Part shown: positions 49,413 through 56,978 of the stretch, piece by piece
Numbering within the stretch: the stretch's first letter is position 1
Layout: the number at the start of each line of letters is the position of its first letter
NCBI RefSeq assembly: GCF_025384765.1
Contig: NZ_VHLL01000006.1
Span: 1 to 64,000 of the forward strand
Length of the DNA: 64,000 nt
Direction: 5' to 3'
From: Methanoculleus formosensis
GTDB taxonomy: Archaea; Halobacteriota; Methanomicrobia; Methanomicrobiales; Methanoculleaceae
Translations under genes and position numbers: made by a program
The notes under the pieces: model-generated
Told to the model about the DNA's origin: nothing
The model's database searches: none
Seen by the model: the letters and a program-made list of their open reading frames with translations, nothing else

Positions 49413-50654
49413 TCAGACTTTCCTCATCGTGTTCCAGCGCATGAGCCTGAGGGCGTACTCCGTCACGCTCCCGATGAGCCGGACGCCGATGCTCTCGTAA
49501 TCCTTCGCGACCTTGCTAAGGTGCTCCGGGATCGGGAGGTGTTGCGGGCATACCTTCACGCACTTGCCGCAGTCCCTGCACAGCGACGCATACGCCGGTT
49601 CCGCACCGTCCATCTTCCCCCCGATGCGGAGTTGGTACATCACCTTCGACTGGAGCGTCCCGCTCTCGGTGTTGTAGGCCTCGAAGCATCCGGGGATGTT
49701 CACGCCCGCCGGACAGGGCATGCAGTACCGGCACCCGGTGCAGCCCACCCTGTTCAGGCTGCGGTAAGCCTCCGCCGCCCGGCCGACGATCTCGAGTTCC
49801 TTCTCGGTAAGTGAGTTCGGGTGGGCTTCGCCGGCGATCCGGATGTTCTCCTCGATATGCTGCTCGTCGTTCATCCCCGAGAGGACCACCGTGACCTCCG
49901 GGTGGTTCCAGACCCACCGGAGCCCCCACTCGGCCGGAGTCCTCTTCACGTCGGCCTCGTCCCAGACGGCCTGCACCTCGGCCGGCGGGTCCCTCGCAAG
50001 GTAGCCGCCCCGGAGCGGCTCCATGATGACGACGCCGAGCCCCTTTGAAGCCGCATACATGAGCCCCTCGGTCCCCGCCTGGTTCATCTCGTCGAGGTAG
50101 TTGTACTGGATCTGGCAGAAGTCCCAGCCGTAGCCGTCGACGATCCCCTTGAATGCCTCGATGCCGCAATGCGATGAGAAGCCTGCGTTCACGATCCGGC
50201 CGTCCGCCTTCGCCGTATCGAGGAACTCAGCGACCCCGAGATTCTTCATCTTCCGCCAGCCTTCACCGCTTGAGAGGCTGTGGATCAGGTAGTAGTCGAT
50301 ATGGTCCGTCTTTAAGGTCCTGAGCTGGAGGTCGAGCATCCTGTCCATATCCTCGCGGGACGTAACGAGCATATGCGGCAGTTTCGTCGCCAGTTTGACC
50401 TTCTCCCGGTAGCCGTCGGCGAGCGCCCGGCCGAGGAGTTGTTCGCTCCCCGGGTATAGCAGCGCGGTGTCGAGGTAGTTCACCCCGTGGTCGACGGCGT
50501 ACCGGATCTGCCGTATCGCCCGTTCTTCATCGATGCCCATACCCTTCGTCGGCAGCCTCATGCAGCCGAAGCCCAGTACCGAGAGTTCGTCGCCGGTCTT
50601 CTCCATCTTCCGATATAGCATGGTCAGTGTCTCCTCTTCCGCACTCTCCGTCAT
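49413..50654 (-). CDS. Aldo/keto reductase with C-terminal ferredoxin-type clusters
   Basis: 413 residues. The barrel carries the catalytic set Asp62, Tyr67, Lys91 and the motif LIHSLSS. The C-terminus adds CTGCRYCMPCPAGVNIP and CRDCGKCVKVCPQ, two iron-sulfur motifs, as in the archaeal/clostridial YgjR-like group. It probably reduces a carbonyl using electrons passed through the clusters. The ATG at 50654 overlaps the stop of the upstream TetR gene (ATGA), so regulator and enzyme are one unit. Confidence 0.93.
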   Translation of the reverse strand: MTESAEEETLTMLYRKMEKTGDELSVLGFGCMRLPTKGMGIDEERAIRQIRYAVDHGVNYLDTALLYPGSEQLLGRALADGYREKVKLATKLPHMLVTSREDMDRMLDLQLRTLKTDHIDYYLIHSLSSGEGWRKMKNLGVAEFLDTAKADGRIVNAGFSSHCGIEAFKGIVDGYGWDFCQIQYNYLDEMNQAGTEGLMYAASKGLGVVIMEPLRGGYLARDPPAEVQAVWDEADVKRTPAEWGLRWVWNHPEVTVVLSGMNDEQHIEENIRIAGEAHPNSLTEKELEIVGRAAEAYRSLNRVGCTGCRYCMPCPAGVNIPGCFEAYNTESGTLQSKVMYQLRIGGKMDGAEPAYASLCRDCGKCVKVCPQHLPIPEHLSKVAKDYESIGVRLIGSVTEYALRLMRWNTMRKV

Positions 50655-51229
50655 TCTTCCGTCAACCCCCTCCATACAATCTCGAACGAAGCGGCGATCA
50701 GCCGGTCTGCGTCGAGATCTCCCCCCGATTCGATGAGCGACCTGACGACGGCGTCGATTGGTGAGGTTATGACGGAAAAGGCGACCTCGACCGGCATGCC
50801 CTTGAGGCAGGTCGTCCCGAGGGTTTCGGTAAGCGCCTCGTAGACGGCGGGAGCGTCCTTCAGGAACTCCTCCGGGGGCAGTCTTCTGACGAACGGGGAC
50901 GAGCAGAACTGCTGGACGAACATATATTCGTCGGGGTGGTCGACCCCCCAGAGAACTGCGCTCCGCCACAATCTCCGCATCCTCTCCCGGTTCGTCCGCT
51001 CCGCGTCGCCTCCCCTGCCGATCTCCTCCGCCATCCGGCTCTTGATCTCGTAGTAGGTGGAGTTAATGAGTTCTTCCTTCGTCGGGAAGTAGTGAAAGAG
51101 CGTCCCGTTCGAGACGCCTGCTTCGCGCGCTATGAGCGATGTGGGGGTGCCGTGAAATCCCCTCTCCGTGAAGAGCCTGACCGCCGTGGCGGCGATGGCT
51201 GCTTTCTTCTCGTTCCTCTCCCCGGTCAT
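50651..51229 (-). CDS. TetR-family transcriptional repressor
   Basis: 192 residues. The N-terminal HTH is clear (AIAATAVRLFTERGFHGTPT then EAGVSNGTLFHYF). The ligand-binding domain is helical and unassigned. It is cotranslated with the aldo/keto reductase, and two overlapping palindromes lie 16-53 bases before its start, so it most likely represses its own operon until an inducer, perhaps an aldehyde, binds. Confidence 0.95.
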   Translation of the reverse strand: MTGERNEKKAAIAATAVRLFTERGFHGTPTSLIAREAGVSNGTLFHYFPTKEELINSTYYEIKSRMAEEIGRGGDAERTNRERMRRLWRSAVLWGVDHPDEYMFVQQFCSSPFVRRLPPEEFLKDAPAVYEALTETLGTTCLKGMPVEVAFSVITSPIDAVVRSLIESGGDLDADRLIAASFEIVWRGLTEE

Positions 51230-51244
51230 ACGGATCCCATCTCT

Positions 51245-51282
51245 TAGAGCGACCGGTCACTCTAGAGTGACCAATCACTCTA
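51245..51282. promoter_or_regulatory. Tandem TetR operator
   Basis: Two near-perfect 20-base palindromes, TAGAGCGACCGGTCACTCTA (51245-51264) and TAGAGTGACCAATCACTCTA (51263-51282), share two central bases (together CTCTAGAG in the middle). They sit directly upstream of the TetR gene and fit one dimer each. Confidence 0.7.
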
Positions 51283-51432
51283 ATGATCTCCGGGTGGTTA
51301 AGGCTTGTGTTTTGTGCGGCGGTATGTGCGATTAGAAGGATATTTACAAGCAGAAACCGGTGTGGGTGAAGTATCGGTCTCCCCCGGCACGCGGAGGAGT
51401 TCAGCGGTGAGTTCGATGAGGGACAAACCGAA

Positions 51433-51463
51433 TTATTTATAATGTCAACCTGTGTATGTTGAC
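51433..51463 (+). promoter_or_regulatory. TATA box and inverted repeat of the GWCPN array
   Basis: TTATTTATAAT (51433-51443) is a strong TATA element whose centre is about 28 bases from the ATG of the first gene, which fits a leaderless transcript. GTCAAC (51444-51449) and GTTGAC (51458-51463) form a perfect inverted repeat with an 8-base spacer between TATA box and ATG, where a repressor would block transcription. Confidence 0.6.
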
Positions 51464-51465
51464 GA

Positions 51466-51912
51466 ATGCCACTCTCCCTGGATGACAGGCAGTTCGCGTT
51501 CTGGAACCTCCGGCGGAGCGGTCTTCCCAACATCCAGATCGCGGACCGCTTCAAGATATCCCGCCAGGCGGTCTCGAAGGCGCTGCTTGCCATGGACCGG
51601 AAGGTCGAGGAGACGCTTATCAATATGGCGCAGGCGAACCAGATCGAGGTCGAGCGCATGAACGCGGAGGTTGGCGTCCTCTTTGGCCGCTCCGTCCCGT
51701 TTGACGCTGCGGCCATCGTCTTCGTCTCGGCGGACCGCGGGGTGCAGGTCTGGTACGAGCACGAGGGCGACTGCGGCGCGTGCCAGCGGTACACCCAATG
51801 CATCGAGCTCCTCTGGGGCTATGCGGACGAACTGGGGATAACACTGACGAAGACTGACGACCCGACCCGTATGGCCGACGAACTCTTTGCAAAACTCCGG
51901 GAGATGGTGTGA
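51466..51912 (+). CDS. Helix-turn-helix regulator heading the GWCPN array
   Basis: 148 residues. Residues 5-45 form a sigma-region-4-like HTH (FWNLRRSGLPNIQIADRFK, ISRQAVSKAL). A helical linker follows, and the C-terminal half has Cys103-x2-Cys106-x5-Cys112 (CGACQRYTQC), a possible metal or cluster site that could sense redox. It ends one base before the TTG start of the first membrane protein. It likely controls the six genes behind it and itself through the inverted repeat at 51.45 kb. The protein family is unnamed to me. Confidence 0.85.
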   Translation: MPLSLDDRQFAFWNLRRSGLPNIQIADRFKISRQAVSKALLAMDRKVEETLINMAQANQIEVERMNAEVGVLFGRSVPFDAAAIVFVSADRGVQVWYEHEGDCGACQRYTQCIELLWGYADELGITLTKTDDPTRMADELFAKLREMV

Positions 51913-51932
51913 TTGTCCCTCTTAAAGACGAT
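51889..51932 (+). repeat. Direct repeat, copy 1
   Basis: Identical over 44 bases to 52775-52818. It spans the last codons of the regulator gene, its stop and the TTG start with the first codons of member 1. Confidence 0.9.
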
Positions 51933-52671
51933 CCGGGCCTACCTCGGGTGGTGTCCTATAGAGGGGCAGGCGCACCGGCAGATGCAGCCGGGGTCCGCCA
52001 TGCGCGGGGATACTCCGCATGGCGGCCGACGGCGCGTCGGCGGTATAAGTATGAAGATCGATTCAATCGCCAAAGAGGAATTCTGGCGCTCAACTGCAGT
52101 CTTCGGAATCTTGGTCGTCATCACTGCTTTCGTCATTACGGCTGGTTATCTCCCAATACCGGCATTTCTGTTGTTTCCCCTGCCACTGGCGATCACTGCA
52201 GTAGTCTTCTGCATCGTGGTGTGGTATAGGCGAAAAGAGCATCTGACCGATCCCAATCCTGTGAGCATCCTCCATCACGCTCTCGGGTTAAGAAACAGAG
52301 AGAAGAAAACGAAGCGAAGGGGAACTGCCATCGAAAAAGCGTTCGATGCTATCCTTCTCGCTATAGTCTTCCTAATCTACCTTTACGCATCCCTTGCGTA
52401 CTCTATCAGCCAGATCTACTGGCTTCCCGTCCTTATCGTCATCGGCCTGCTCCTGGCCCGCATTGTCTTCACCGATGGTGATGTTCAACGCGTCACCGTT
52501 GCGCGATCAGTTGTCTTCTATCTCATAGTAGCCATGATCTTTCTTCTGCGCCACCTGGCACTGGGGCATCCCGTTCTTCCCCTCCTCCAGGCATTCGTGC
52601 TTATTGGCATCGTTTCTTTCCCCATCCTCTATATCTGGGAGCGACGACGCGCACCGGAGGGAACAGATTGA
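51913..52671 (+). CDS. Membrane protein 1 of the GWCPN array
   Basis: 252 residues from a TTG that directly follows the regulator stop. The N-terminus is an amphipathic helix and signature, LLKTIRAYLGWCP. After a polar linker (20-55) come about six membrane helices in three groups (near 60-105, 155-195, 215-245). The body is unlike that of members 3, 5 and 6; only the N-terminal signature is shared. A later ATG (MKIDSIAKEEF, residue 47) could start a shorter protein without the signature, so the TTG rests on the parallel with member 2. Confidence 0.7.
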   Translation: MSLLKTIRAYLGWCPIEGQAHRQMQPGSAMRGDTPHGGRRRVGGISMKIDSIAKEEFWRSTAVFGILVVITAFVITAGYLPIPAFLLFPLPLAITAVVFCIVVWYRRKEHLTDPNPVSILHHALGLRNREKKTKRRGTAIEKAFDAILLAIVFLIYLYASLAYSISQIYWLPVLIVIGLLLARIVFTDGDVQRVTVARSVVFYLIVAMIFLLRHLALGHPVLPLLQAFVLIGIVSFPILYIWERRRAPEGTD

Positions 52672-52774
52672 TGGTAACCCATGGAACGATGGCTCTGCTC
52701 TGCACGCCCGTCCGGGATATATTTGGAGTAGAGATCCGCAACAAACCCACTTTGGGAGGAATGACGACGAATAG

Positions 52775-52818
52775 GCAAAACTCCGGGAGATGGTGTGATT
52801 GTCCCTCTTAAAGACGAT
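52775..52818 (+). repeat. Direct repeat, copy 2
   Basis: Exact 44-base copy of 51889-51932, placed before member 2. It carries the tail of the regulator gene (sense LREMV and stop) without the rest, so it is the scar of a duplication or recombination. Confidence 0.9.
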
Positions 52819-53407
52819 ACAGGCATATCTTGGGTGGTGCCCCATGGCAGGGTCGGTGCGGATGGATCGCGTGGCGCGGGCGGCGACGGTCGCGGCACCG
52901 GGCGGGCAGGATGGGGGCACTCCTGAGTTTGGGTGGTGGAACCGCTATCATAATCAGCTGCTGGTCGCGGCTCTGACCGCATCGGTAGCGACAGTGGCGG
53001 CCTTTCTCCTGGTCGGGGATACCGCCTCATGGTATCCGGCTATCTTCCTCGGGGTTGGCCTCGGGGTGGGGCTGGCCATCGGCTTCCTGCTCGGTTCAGG
53101 GAAGCAGTACGCGCAGATCGATGCCGGAAAGTTCATCCGGGCCAACATGAGCCGGCGGCTGCGCATCACGCAGGATCTGAGCCTGCCGGCGGCAATCATC
53201 CTCCTTGCCATTGTCATAGTGTATTACATCCATGCGGGGTGGTTTGACCGGCTTCCTGCGCTCATGCTGGCCCTCGGTATCGCCTTCTGGGCGCAGTATG
53301 GCATCACGATCCTCTGGGAGCGGCGGCACCGCACAACCCTGATCGCGAAGAAGGGGTCGATGTATACCCTGGATACGAACGCGGAGGGTGAACCCATATG
53401 GCAATAA
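52799..53407 (+). CDS. Membrane protein 2 of the GWCPN array
   Basis: 202 residues from TTG. N-terminal signature LLKTIQAYLGWCP, then a polar linker and four membrane helices (about 48-68, 75-95, 122-142, 148-168), with a short cytosolic tail ending MYTLDTNAEGEP. The start context is the duplicated copy of the regulator 3-prime end. Its last ten bases overlap member 3. Confidence 0.75.
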   Translation: MSLLKTIQAYLGWCPMAGSVRMDRVARAATVAAPGGQDGGTPEFGWWNRYHNQLLVAALTASVATVAAFLLVGDTASWYPAIFLGVGLGVGLAIGFLLGSGKQYAQIDAGKFIRANMSRRLRITQDLSLPAAIILLAIVIVYYIHAGWFDRLPALMLALGIAFWAQYGITILWERRHRTTLIAKKGSMYTLDTNAEGEPIWQ

Positions 53408-54129
53408 GGTTCTCCGAGACGATACGAAGGCTGATGGGCTGGTGCCCGAATGCGGCAATGGCCGGCAGGCGATATGCCGCGCTTGATGTCGAGGTCGAGA
53501 CGGCGGCGGGCGGCGGCCGGGAGGCGGTGGAGGGTGTACTGGTAGACTACGGCCCGATCGGCACCCCGGGAAGGCTTTTCCTGCTGCTGCTTGGCGTCGC
53601 CGGTATCATCGGATGTCTCTACGCCACGGCTCCGGCAACCCTCGTTACGGTTCCGATAACCTCCGTCATGCCTCCGGCGGGGGGCCTTCTTCTGCTGGCC
53701 GTCATCGTGGGATACTCCGTTCTAGAACTCTACGGAGCCCTGCGAAGATCCCGCATCGATATCGCCCGCGATACCGTCACTATCAGTCGGCCGCTCTTCC
53801 GACCGATCGTCATCCCAAAGGATGCCGTCGTGACGGCAGAGGTGAAGGAGAACAAACTCCCCGTCTCCCTCCGGCTTCTCACGATAGCGATCTCGGTGCT
53901 TCTCGTGTTGGCGGCCGGCAACGTATACGCCGGGTTCGAAAACCCGGCTTCCATGCAGTTTATCTTCGGGCTTGCCGCCGCGATCCTCTTTCCGGTGCTC
54001 TTCTACCGTACCTATCTGCGGACCCGTTACCCGCAGGCCCTGGTGATAACGACTGCGGAAAAGAAGATCGCCGCGATCTACACCGATGATCCGGGGCGGA
54101 TAGCCCGGGCGCTGGAGATGCCGTCATGA
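53398..54129 (+). CDS. Membrane protein 3 of the GWCPN array
   Basis: 243 residues. Signature ETIRRLMGWCPN at 7-18, a linker REAVEGVLVDYG, two membrane helices (about 60-115), a beta-rich segment (RIDIARDTVTISRPLFRP) that could be a small PH-like fold, two more helices (about 160-205) and a C-terminal tail IYTDDPGRIARALE. The same plan as members 5 and 6, but strongly diverged. Overlaps member 2 by 10 bases and member 4 by four (ATGA). Confidence 0.8.
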   Translation: MAIRFSETIRRLMGWCPNAAMAGRRYAALDVEVETAAGGGREAVEGVLVDYGPIGTPGRLFLLLLGVAGIIGCLYATAPATLVTVPITSVMPPAGGLLLLAVIVGYSVLELYGALRRSRIDIARDTVTISRPLFRPIVIPKDAVVTAEVKENKLPVSLRLLTIAISVLLVLAAGNVYAGFENPASMQFIFGLAAAILFPVLFYRTYLRTRYPQALVITTAEKKIAAIYTDDPGRIARALEMPS

Positions 54130-54605
54130 CGATCTCCATGGAGTATATCAGGAAGAAACTCGGCTGGTGCCCGAACGCCGGCGCCGTCAAACCCGTCCGG
54201 CATACGAGCGCACAAGCGGGCTACGGGGATGCGTGGCAGGGGAAGAAACCGGAGTCCAACCCCGGCCCGGAGCCGGCCGGCACTGCAGGCGGCGATCGGG
54301 GCGGCTACCAGGACAACATGCTGCTGATCCTCCTTGCCCTGGCCTGGCTTCTTCCGGTCGTGTACGACCGTGAGTTCCTCCCGATCCTCATCCTCCTCTC
54401 CGCCGTCGCGGTATATTACGACGCGCAGGGCATCCGTGCCGGGGAGAGATTCGAGAAGGAGACACTCTTCGGCGATATCGTCACCTGGCAGCCGCTGACC
54501 TGGGGGGCGGCGACGCTTGTGGGCGGGATCATCATCATGGCGATCTACCTCTTTCACCGCAAAGAGATCTACCGTGCAAACCACCGCGGGGAAGCGTCCG
54601 CATGA
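54126..54605 (+). CDS. Membrane protein 4 of the GWCPN array
   Basis: 159 residues. Signature MEYIRKKLGWCPN, a long polar Gly/Pro-rich linker (20-63), then about three membrane helices (64-85, 87-103, 127-145) and a short basic tail. It lacks the beta segment and the IYTDDP tail of members 3, 5 and 6. Coupled by ATGA overlaps on both sides. Confidence 0.78.
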   Translation: MTISMEYIRKKLGWCPNAGAVKPVRHTSAQAGYGDAWQGKKPESNPGPEPAGTAGGDRGGYQDNMLLILLALAWLLPVVYDREFLPILILLSAVAVYYDAQGIRAGERFEKETLFGDIVTWQPLTWGAATLVGGIIIMAIYLFHRKEIYRANHRGEASA

Positions 54606-55333
54606 TGCTGAAGTTCGCTGAAGCGATACGCCGGTGGATGGGCTGGTGCCCGAACGCGACCGGCACCGTTCGGCGGCGGTATGTCGCACCGGACGGCGAG
54701 ATCGGGATGGGGGCGGTTGCGGACGGCAAGCGGGAGGCGGTGGAGGGTGTATTCGTGGATTACACCAGCCCCCGTTTCCTGCCGGCGTTGATCCTTGTCG
54801 TCGGTGTGTTCTTCGTGCTCCTCGTGGTGGGCTTCCTGATCCCATCCCTGCGTCCCGGATTCTATGTTTTCACAGGCCTCTTCTTTATGGCATATGCCGT
54901 GGTGCGTCTCTATCTCGATAAAAAAAAGGCTGAAATAGAGTCGTTCGGAGATTCGGTCGTTGTCCGGAGATCGCGTACTCGCCCCCTCGTCTTTAGAAAG
55001 GATGCCGTCAGATCGGTCGAGGTGAAACAGCCCTACCTGCCCATACCCCGCTGGGTGTCCGCGTTGCTCTTGGTTCTCATGTATGCGGGGGTATTCTACG
55101 GCATGGTGTGGATCGGGGCGATGCGGTATCCGGGCAGCCCGGCCGACCCCGATTTTATCTTCCACGCCTTCTATCTGGTCGGCTTCATGGTGTATATGCT
55201 GGAGTTGCTCTGTCGCTCCCTGGTCAGCCTGCGGTATCCCGGCCACGTCAGGGTGAAGCTGGAGCCCGCCGGGTTCCTCCACATCTACACCGATGACCCC
55301 GAACGGATAGCCCGGGTACTGGAGGTTTCCTGA
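54602..55333 (+). CDS. Membrane protein 5 of the GWCPN array
   Basis: 243 residues. Signature EAIRRWMGWCPN, linker REAVEGVFVDYTSPRF, two membrane helices (about 60-102), a beta segment (IESFGDSVVVRRSRTRPLVF), VRSVEVKQPYLPIPRW, two further helices and the tail EPAGFLHIYTDDPERIARVLE. Very close to member 6 at both protein and DNA level, so a recent duplicate. Its stop overlaps the ATG of member 6 by one base. Confidence 0.85.
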   Translation: MMLKFAEAIRRWMGWCPNATGTVRRRYVAPDGEIGMGAVADGKREAVEGVFVDYTSPRFLPALILVVGVFFVLLVVGFLIPSLRPGFYVFTGLFFMAYAVVRLYLDKKKAEIESFGDSVVVRRSRTRPLVFRKDAVRSVEVKQPYLPIPRWVSALLLVLMYAGVFYGMVWIGAMRYPGSPADPDFIFHAFYLVGFMVYMLELLCRSLVSLRYPGHVRVKLEPAGFLHIYTDDPERIARVLEVS

Positions 55334-56076
55334 TGATGGTATTTCTAGAGTATATCCGGAAGAAGCTCGGCTGGTGCCCGAACGCGGCGGCTACCGGCAC
55401 CAGCAGGCGCCGGTATGCCGCGCCAGACGGCGTGGTCGGGCTTGAAGCCGCGAGGGAAGGCAGCCGGGAGGTGGTGGAGGGCGTGTTCGTGGAGTACACC
55501 AGTCCTCGCTTCTTTGTGCTGATGCCGTTCTCCGTCCTCACCTTCCTCTCCCTCTTCGTGATATCCGTCCTGATCCCCTCCCTGTGGCCCGCTCTCTCCT
55601 TTACCTTCCTGGCCGTCTCCCTTCTGGCGTGGGTTGCATGGCGCATCTACTTCAATCCGTACAGGACCGCGATCGAGTTCTCCGGGAACTCCGTCACCAT
55701 CCAGAGATCGCATACCGGGCCGCTCGTCTTCGGAAAGGATACGGTAAGGTCGGTCGAGGTGAAACGACCCTACCTGCCCATACCCCGCTGGGCGTCCGTG
55801 CTCCTCCTGATAATCATGGCTGCAGTGATGTTCTTTGCTGGCGTAGGGAACGGGTTGATGCGCTACCCGGGAGGCCTGTCCGCCGGCCCCTATTTCGGCT
55901 TTCAGGTTCTCCTGGCGGTCGGCTGGACGGCATTTATACTGGAGCTGCTCTACCGCGCCCTGGTCAGCCTGCGGTATCCCGGCCACGTCAGGGTGAGGCT
56001 CGAGCCCGCCGGGTTCCTCCAGATCTATGCGGAAGACCCGGAGAGGGTTGCCGAACTGCTCGGTTCCCCACGATGA
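55333..56076 (+). CDS. Membrane protein 6 of the GWCPN array
   Basis: 247 residues with the same plan as member 5: LEYIRKKLGWCPN, REVVEGVFVEYTSPRF, paired helices, IEFSGNSVTIQRSHTGPLVF, VRSVEVKRPYLPIPRW, a second helix pair and EPAGFLQIYAEDPERVAELL. The N-terminal signature is closer to member 4 and the rest to member 5, which suggests mosaic exchange in the array. Last gene of the unit. The family may correspond to DUF1673; not verified. Confidence 0.85.
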   Translation: MMVFLEYIRKKLGWCPNAAATGTSRRRYAAPDGVVGLEAAREGSREVVEGVFVEYTSPRFFVLMPFSVLTFLSLFVISVLIPSLWPALSFTFLAVSLLAWVAWRIYFNPYRTAIEFSGNSVTIQRSHTGPLVFGKDTVRSVEVKRPYLPIPRWASVLLLIIMAAVMFFAGVGNGLMRYPGGLSAGPYFGFQVLLAVGWTAFILELLYRALVSLRYPGHVRVRLEPAGFLQIYAEDPERVAELLGSPR

Positions 56077-56168: not shown

Positions 56169-56978
56169 ATGACCGATAACACTCACTCCTCTCCCCCGGC
56201 GCTCGTCGAGTTCCAAAACGTCAGCGTCGTCCGGGACGGCCACAGGCTCCTCGACTCCGTCTCGCTCACGATCCGCGAGGGAGAGCATATCGCCATCCTC
56301 GGCCCGAACGGGGCGGGGAAGTCGTCGCTCATCCGGGCGATCACCCGCGAGTACTACCCCTCTGCCGGGGGGGCCGGCGTCGTCTTCCGGTTCCGGGGAC
56401 GGGATACCTGGGACGCCTTCGATCTCCGGTCGCACCTCGGGGTCGTCTCTAGCGACCTCCAGCACACCTTCACCCGCGGCATATCGGGCCGCGAGGTTGT
56501 CCTCTCGGGGTTCTTCTCAAGCATCGGGCTCTTCCTCTCTCACGAGGTGACCCCCGCTATGGAGCGGAGGACCGATGAGATACTCGAGTTCCTGGAGGTC
56601 GCCCACCTTGCCGACCGCCCGATGACCGAACTCTCCTCGGGCGAGGCCCGCCGGTTCCTGATCGGACGGGCGCTCGTCCACGACCCGAGCACGCTCCTCC
56701 TCGACGAGCCCACAAACAGCCTCGACCTCGCCGCGCTTCACACCTTTAGGAAAACCCTCCGAAAGATTGCACAGTCCGGCACCGGGATCATCCTCGTGAC
56801 CCACAACCTCCACGACATCATCCCCGAGATCTCCCGTGTCGTCCTGATGCGGGACGGCGCCGTCCAGAAAGACGGCCCGAAGGCCGATGTCCTGACCAGT
56901 GAAGCCATCGCCGACCTCTTCCGCGTCCCGGTCCGCGTCCGGGAAGAGGACGGGTATTACTACGCGACGGGGTACTAA
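56169..56978 (+). CDS. Stand-alone ABC transporter ATP-binding protein (ModF-like)
   Basis: 269 residues. Walker A GPNGAGKS at 45-52, signature ELSSGEARR, Walker B TLLLDEPTNSLD and the switch histidine in LVTHNLHD. No permease or binding protein is near. The single-domain form resembles COG1119 (ModF/PhrA-like) proteins, whose role is unclear. It follows the array by 92 bases on the same strand; cotranscription cannot be excluded. Confidence 0.9.
   Translation: MTDNTHSSPPALVEFQNVSVVRDGHRLLDSVSLTIREGEHIAILGPNGAGKSSLIRAITREYYPSAGGAGVVFRFRGRDTWDAFDLRSHLGVVSSDLQHTFTRGISGREVVLSGFFSSIGLFLSHEVTPAMERRTDEILEFLEVAHLADRPMTELSSGEARRFLIGRALVHDPSTLLLDEPTNSLDLAALHTFRKTLRKIAQSGTGIILVTHNLHDIIPEISRVVLMRDGAVQKDGPKADVLTSEAIADLFRVPVRVREEDGYYYATGY

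Follow-up and report, generated by a model that had tools for sequence, protein, structure and literature searches.

Why would six consecutive genes for membrane proteins of unlike build begin with the same short N-terminal tag? The genes lie in a 64,000-nucleotide stretch of the archaeon Methanoculleus formosensis (contig NZ_VHLL01000006.1, positions 1 to 64,000 of the forward strand; hereafter the window), where they follow a gene for a helix-turn-helix (HTH) regulator, and each product starts with an amphipathic helix that closes with GWCP. Comparison of loci and genomes established, at the level of sequence, the gene array, its operator, the co-occurrence of tag and regulator, the matching of tag type to regulator type and the diversity of the membrane bodies. 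We give slightly better than even credence to a chromosomal array of an autorepressor and membrane receptors, similar to SdpR-SdpI, in which a cytoplasmic tag would dock the repressor to membrane proteins that act in sensing or immunity; the repression, the docking and the signal are what we infer.

The HTH gene (51466..51912, 148 aa) heads the array, and all seven genes lie on the plus strand. The first tagged gene, m1 (51913..52671, 252 aa, six predicted transmembrane (TM) segments), has a TTG start that abuts the HTH stop codon. It is followed by m2 (52799..53407, 202 aa, four predicted TM segments, TTG start), a DUF1673 protein, and by m3 (53398..54129, 243 aa), m4 (54126..54605, 159 aa, two predicted TM segments), m5 (54602..55333, 243 aa) and m6 (55333..56076, 247 aa). 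The tags of m1 to m6 are MSLLKTIRAYLGWCPIE, MSLLKTIQAYLGWCPMA, MAIRFSETIRRLMGWCPNA, MTISMEYIRKKLGWCPNA, MMLKFAEAIRRWMGWCPNA and MMVFLEYIRKKLGWCPNA, respectively. Counted from the HTH gene to m6, the junctions are 0, +127, -10, -4, -4 and -1, so that five of the six abut or overlap. The first-pass annotation had described these coupled junctions and an operon headed by an HTH protein with a three-Cys site, and both descriptions held, with the open reading frames and Cys 103, 106 and 112 all present.

Among 150 Methanomicrobiales genomes, the HTH gene was found in 58 and DUF1673 in 47, and nearly all DUF1673 matches lay directly behind the HTH gene. The loci retrieved from this order had one to seven GWCP genes behind a 149-codon HTH gene, with offsets such as -4, -1, +2 and +8. 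The same HTH gene, with an identical or slightly altered operator and as many as a dozen GWCP genes, was found in Methanosarcina, Methanolobus, Methanoperedens and the anaerobic methanotrophic (ANME) lineage ANME-2; the array thus recurs in Methanomicrobiales and in Methanosarcinales with their relatives. At the scale of the phylum, profile searches of 393 genomes placed HTH and tag together in 64, HTH only in seven, tag only in six and neither in 316 (Fisher p 4e-58). A signature that was widespread on lone genes had been named beforehand as the observation that would sink the idea of a system, and 149 of the 150 tag matches listed at this scale lay within 8.7 kb of an HTH gene. Assembly of the tagged proteins into one complex, which had also been suggested, found no support, the size of the arrays running from one to about a dozen genes.

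The seven cases of HTH without tag were exceptions at the level of the profiles. Two loci (L266 and L267) do have a GWCP sequence behind the HTH gene, one genome (G025) has a GWCP gene below threshold (L097), another (G133) has only the second HTH type described below, and in G069 no intact HTH gene was seen. In the last two, L268 and L272, the HTH gene is a more distant relative and membrane proteins without the GWCP tag follow it, and upstream of L268, where the HTH gene is intact, lies a variant operator, GTAAAC-N8-GTTTAC; possibly, these two loci represent a third tag/regulator pair. Of the cases of tag without HTH, G442 is a fragmented assembly with four GWCP genes in which the HTH gene was not found, and the five others were matches at E 0.006-0.02, which is chance level for 393 genomes.

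A second HTH paralogue, present in some genomes, has the recognition helix TRQGVSQ instead of SRQAVS and the operator GTAAAT-N8-ATTTAC. The genes behind it carry a different tag, ...GLC(R/P)K, in which the Cys is retained (L088, L098, L100, L102, L130 and L131). Across 442 gene records (369 distinct bodies), drawn from two sets of loci with some genomes in common, the type of tag agreed with the type of HTH in 442 of 442, with 414 WC tags behind SRQAVS-type and 28 GLC-type tags behind TRQGVS-type HTH genes. The Cys loop reads C..CxRY in the regulators of the GWCP type versus C..C(D/N/G)E(F/Y) in those of the GLCRK type, and the tag opposite the latter loop gains a K and often an R. One body family of about 340 residues (50 rows) bears both tags, and its tree needs four tag changes, at least three of them forced by well-supported branches. 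Because this family switched tag repeatedly while tag and HTH types always matched, the tag appears to belong functionally with the regulator and not with the body. Secreted proteins with a 'TYLFITGPN' motif adjoin the loci of the second paralogue, and some of them appear to begin behind the GTAAAT-N8-ATTTAC operator as well.

These switches bear on another explanation, in which the HTH protein does no more than control the operon and the tag has some other purpose common to the membrane proteins, be it membrane insertion, quality control or binding of a shared partner that differs between the two systems. We regard this as doubtful but still worth serious attention. An amphipathic helix is plausible for targeting to the membrane surface, and an AlphaFold2 model of the regulator joined to a tag showed no docking. 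However, a signal for targeting would be expected to go with the body or the cell rather than with the regulator, whereas one body family changed its tag along with the regulator type at least three times, and some cells (G085, G093 and G140) contain both tags. A common docking site had been one of three readings offered for the tag by the first-pass annotation, beside a modification of the cysteine and the single complex, and it is this reading that we prefer, since tag and HTH types stay matched through independent switches.

The tag itself was examined in 311 distinct versions. The W and C were invariant, the P nearly so and the G was present in 97%, while the G, C and P codons varied freely. 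Fixed residues with free codon variation argue for selection at the level of the protein, and conservation of the tag as a DNA element was rejected since synonymous codon use is free. In the split-PH family, to which m3, m5 and m6 belong, the only invariant columns among 58 sequences were the W, C and P of the tag. The cysteine had been described as the single conserved one; it is the sole Cys in m2, m4 and m6, but m1, m3 and m5 each have one more. From the positive charge around the predicted TM segments (positive-inside loops), the tag of the window proteins is predicted to be cytoplasmic.

Traces of local duplication are visible in the array of the window. An 85-nucleotide direct repeat with 85% identity flanks m1 on the plus strand: copy 1 (51889..51973) comprises the 3' end of the HTH gene and the m1 tag, and copy 2 (52775..52859) comprises what is left of the HTH 3' end within the spacer, together with the m2 tag. 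The 127-nucleotide spacer recurs in relatives that have m1, and m1 lies within a stretch of lower G+C. The repeat, the HTH remnant before m2, the recurring spacer and the dip in G+C fit an insertion or duplication of m1 between the HTH gene and m2, early in the genus. Such a repeat of HTH tail and tag also speaks for reading the tag as a passive remnant, spread by duplication and recombination at conserved 5' ends and lacking a function at the protein level. We consider this highly improbable, more so than any other explanation discussed here, as it is contradicted by residues that stay fixed while their codons vary and by a tag core that is invariant though the bodies of one family drop to 12-20% identity.

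The operator suggests how the array could be controlled. In the window, a TATA-box-like sequence, TTATTTATAA (51433..51442, plus strand), is centred about 28 nucleotides upstream of the HTH start codon, and the operator GTCAACCTGTGTATGTTGAC, of the form GTCAAC-N8-GTTGAC (51444..51463, plus strand), lies between this box and the start codon. GTCAAC-N8-GTTGAC or a close variant is present upstream of nearly every HTH gene in the Methanomicrobiales and Methanosarcinales loci, two or three bases ahead of the start codon and directly after the TATA box, which has the same position in most relatives; the site is kept in Methanomicrobiales and shows small variations in Methanosarcinales. The distance from TATA box to start codon is in keeping with an mRNA that has no leader or almost none. 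In archaeal promoters, a site between the TATA box and the transcription start suits a repressor, and an operator that overlaps the site where RNA polymerase is loaded would let the HTH protein repress its own operon. Scans for bacterial promoters and terminators gave nothing beyond shuffled sequence, as expected since the host is an archaeon.

The exact operator occurs once in this genome. It was detected in 50 of the 150 Methanomicrobiales genomes, mostly as one copy per genome, and within the order it was restricted to genomes that bear the HTH gene, with G113 as the sole exception. The additional copies in one family are informative. In L146 a GWCP gene distant from the main array has an operator copy of its own, and the array of G085 (L088) has an internal site before one of its genes. 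Operons for Yip1 and a secreted CARDB-like protein were noted at L138-L142 and L209; they have the GTCAAC operator in several genomes of this family, and in Methanosarcinales they lie beside the GWCP array together with a MacB-type ABC transporter. Bacteria have Yip1, membrane proteins of the SdpI and PH types and MacB-type transporters in settings of envelope stress or bacteriocin immunity.

The membrane bodies behind the tag are diverse. That the membrane parts in the window differ was borne out, although they form four families and not six: m1, m2, m4, and the homologous m3, m5 and m6 (m5 and m6 55% identical, m3 and m6 30% identical). A tentative assignment of all six to DUF1673 (PF07895, cut-off 30.4 bits) held for m2 (37.1) and m6 (31.2), while m3 (29.9), m4 and m5 stayed below the cut-off and m1 had no match; the N-terminal (M/L)GWCP motif of DUF1673 is present in all six genes. 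Across loci, the tagged bodies fell into 17 multi-member families and 24 singletons. Some of those behind the HTH gene are true SdpI proteins (PF13630 about 1e-17, PF07853 about 1e-16) with DUF1648; such bodies are found in L088, L095 and L106, in the last as the first gene of the array. The AlphaFold2 model of m6 (pLDDT 76.9) shows a PH-like beta sandwich broken by two TM hairpins, with seven strands and a C-terminal helix as in solved PH/PTB domains. The top 50 matches among solved structures were overwhelmingly PH/PTB-like, with Z up to 10.8 and mostly over 80-100 residues, and by Foldseek alone the matches had E > 0.1.

The regulator consists of an N-terminal HTH of the LuxR/sigma-4/Tfx-like kind, a beta domain and a C-terminal CxxC-x5-C loop with helices. 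In an alignment of 77 relatives, Cys 103, 106 and 112 were invariant, and a nearly invariant His stands directly before the loop. AlphaFold2 modelled the protein confidently except for part of the Cys loop and the appended tag. The N-terminal half is similar to LuxR/sigma-4-type HTH domains and to the archaeal factor 8hno, and the whole model had no confident match by Foldseek. With an invariant W-C core in the GWCP tag, three invariant cysteines in the regulator, a Cys that is kept in the GLC-type tag and hosts that are anaerobes, the four cysteines might instead form a metal or thiol redox device (a shared four-ligand site, heme at Cys-Pro, or a disulfide) that senses oxygen, metal or electrophiles and not toxins. 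This seems unlikely to us, as the His before the loop could complete a site within the regulator and AlphaFold2 does not model metals; moreover, such a device is compatible with docking rather than exclusive of it.

The preferred reading, docking of the repressor by the tag, can be put as a sequence of steps. The HTH protein, bound to the operator behind the TATA box, would keep its own operon repressed. Once one of the membrane bodies detects a toxin or damage to the envelope, its GWCP tag, acting as docking motif and probably touching the Cys-loop domain, would hold the repressor at the membrane, and induction of the operon would follow. The variable bodies (SdpI-type, split-PH, DUF6159-like and DUF1673) might then be interchangeable sensor or immunity modules that share one regulator and one tag, and the operon would probably be switched on when the cell envelope is attacked. 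A more tentative extension, possible in our view but clearly less probable than the docking array itself, is a plug-in signalling bus. Unrelated membrane sensors would gain a short cytoplasmic tag that wires them to one autorepressor, the three cysteines of the regulator and the Cys of the tag would form one intermolecular site, and some cells would run a GWCP and a GLCRK bus side by side, orthogonal to one another and each with a separate operator.

Several observations limit the case for docking on the SdpR-SdpI pattern. Family searches gave the HTH protein no ArsR match and the window proteins no SdpI body, and no toxin gene was found. The AlphaFold2 model mentioned above, of the natural in-frame stretch across the HTH-TGA-TTG junction read with W at the stop codon, showed the tag prolonging the C-terminal helix at low confidence, with pLDDT of about 40 at its end; here the tag had no alignment and a one-residue linker, and HTH rows and tag rows were not properly aligned jointly, so that the model counts neither for nor against docking. 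Finally, the two HTH types may stem from a single duplication; the charge swap in the Cys loop would then be one event, as against several for the tag switches.

The surroundings of the array were also inspected. A divergent TetR regulator gene (50651-51229, minus strand) lies upstream, preceded by an inverted repeat around CGGTCACTCTAGAGTGACC (about 51250-51285) that may be its own operator. An ABC transporter ATPase gene (56169-56978, plus strand) starts 92 bases downstream of the array; its best NCBIfam match was ModF-like, below the family cut-off, and no search was made for a permease. Copy number is variable and the family is listed among those of archaeal 'dark matter islands' (PMC4158269), and the array could accordingly be an antiviral or abortive-infection membrane system in which the HTH protein senses infection. 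We find this very unlikely. HTH gene and array stay together across two orders, the tagged bodies examined include no effector-like enzyme, and phage and plasmid records contained no HTH relative, with one partial match among viral contigs. A mobile or viral origin of the HTH gene was rejected given the lack of relatives in the phage and plasmid records.

As proposed, the docking array offers a role that can be tested for a large, so far uncharacterised family of membrane proteins from methanogens and anaerobic methane oxidisers, and its archaeal regulator has one well-defined operator and hardly any other targets. It also points to modular wiring, by which many different membrane sensors could be coupled to a single repressor. 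The two sets of tag, regulator and operator amount to a natural experiment on specificity.

Part of this was on record. The family (arCOG06827, SC.00027, DUF1673) has been noted as a 'membrane protein expansion in Methanosarcina, MGWCP motif' (PMC4158269; PMC4390880), and a literature search found no further text on GWCP proteins beyond these two. By the Pfam cut-off m2 and m6 are members, and the MGWCP motif is common to both. The texts found describe the family only, and not the regulator, the operator, the coupling, the unrelated bodies (SdpI, DUF6159-like) or the second pair. The first-pass annotation had known no description of the array as a system; in the texts found this holds for regulator, operator and tag coupling, but the tagged family was already on record. 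New here are the order-wide operator, the co-occurrence of tag and HTH, the tag on at least 17 body families and the second set of tag, HTH and operator. The HTH protein resembles the Tfx family (TIGR00721) and PDB 8hno/8hnp in its N-terminal HTH, with weak matches in sequence and structure; unlike Tfx, it scores 18.6 bits against a cut-off of 60.25 and has a CxxC-x5-C domain. Bacterial membrane proteins of the YdbS/YdbT kind, which are linked in reports to bacteriocin transport and the sigma-W regulon, likewise combine a PH-like domain with TM helices, but here two TM hairpins break up the PH fold, which also bears the GWCP tag. The closest precedent for the mechanism is found in Bacillus subtilis, where the membrane protein SdpI captures the repressor SdpR (PMC1626106). 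The array differs from it in the family of its HTH, in a defined N-terminal tag, in many unlike bodies per array, in having no known toxin and in being archaeal. In both, the gene for an autorepressor, putative in the array, is followed by that for a polytopic membrane protein, and in relatives of the window locus that protein can be a true SdpI.

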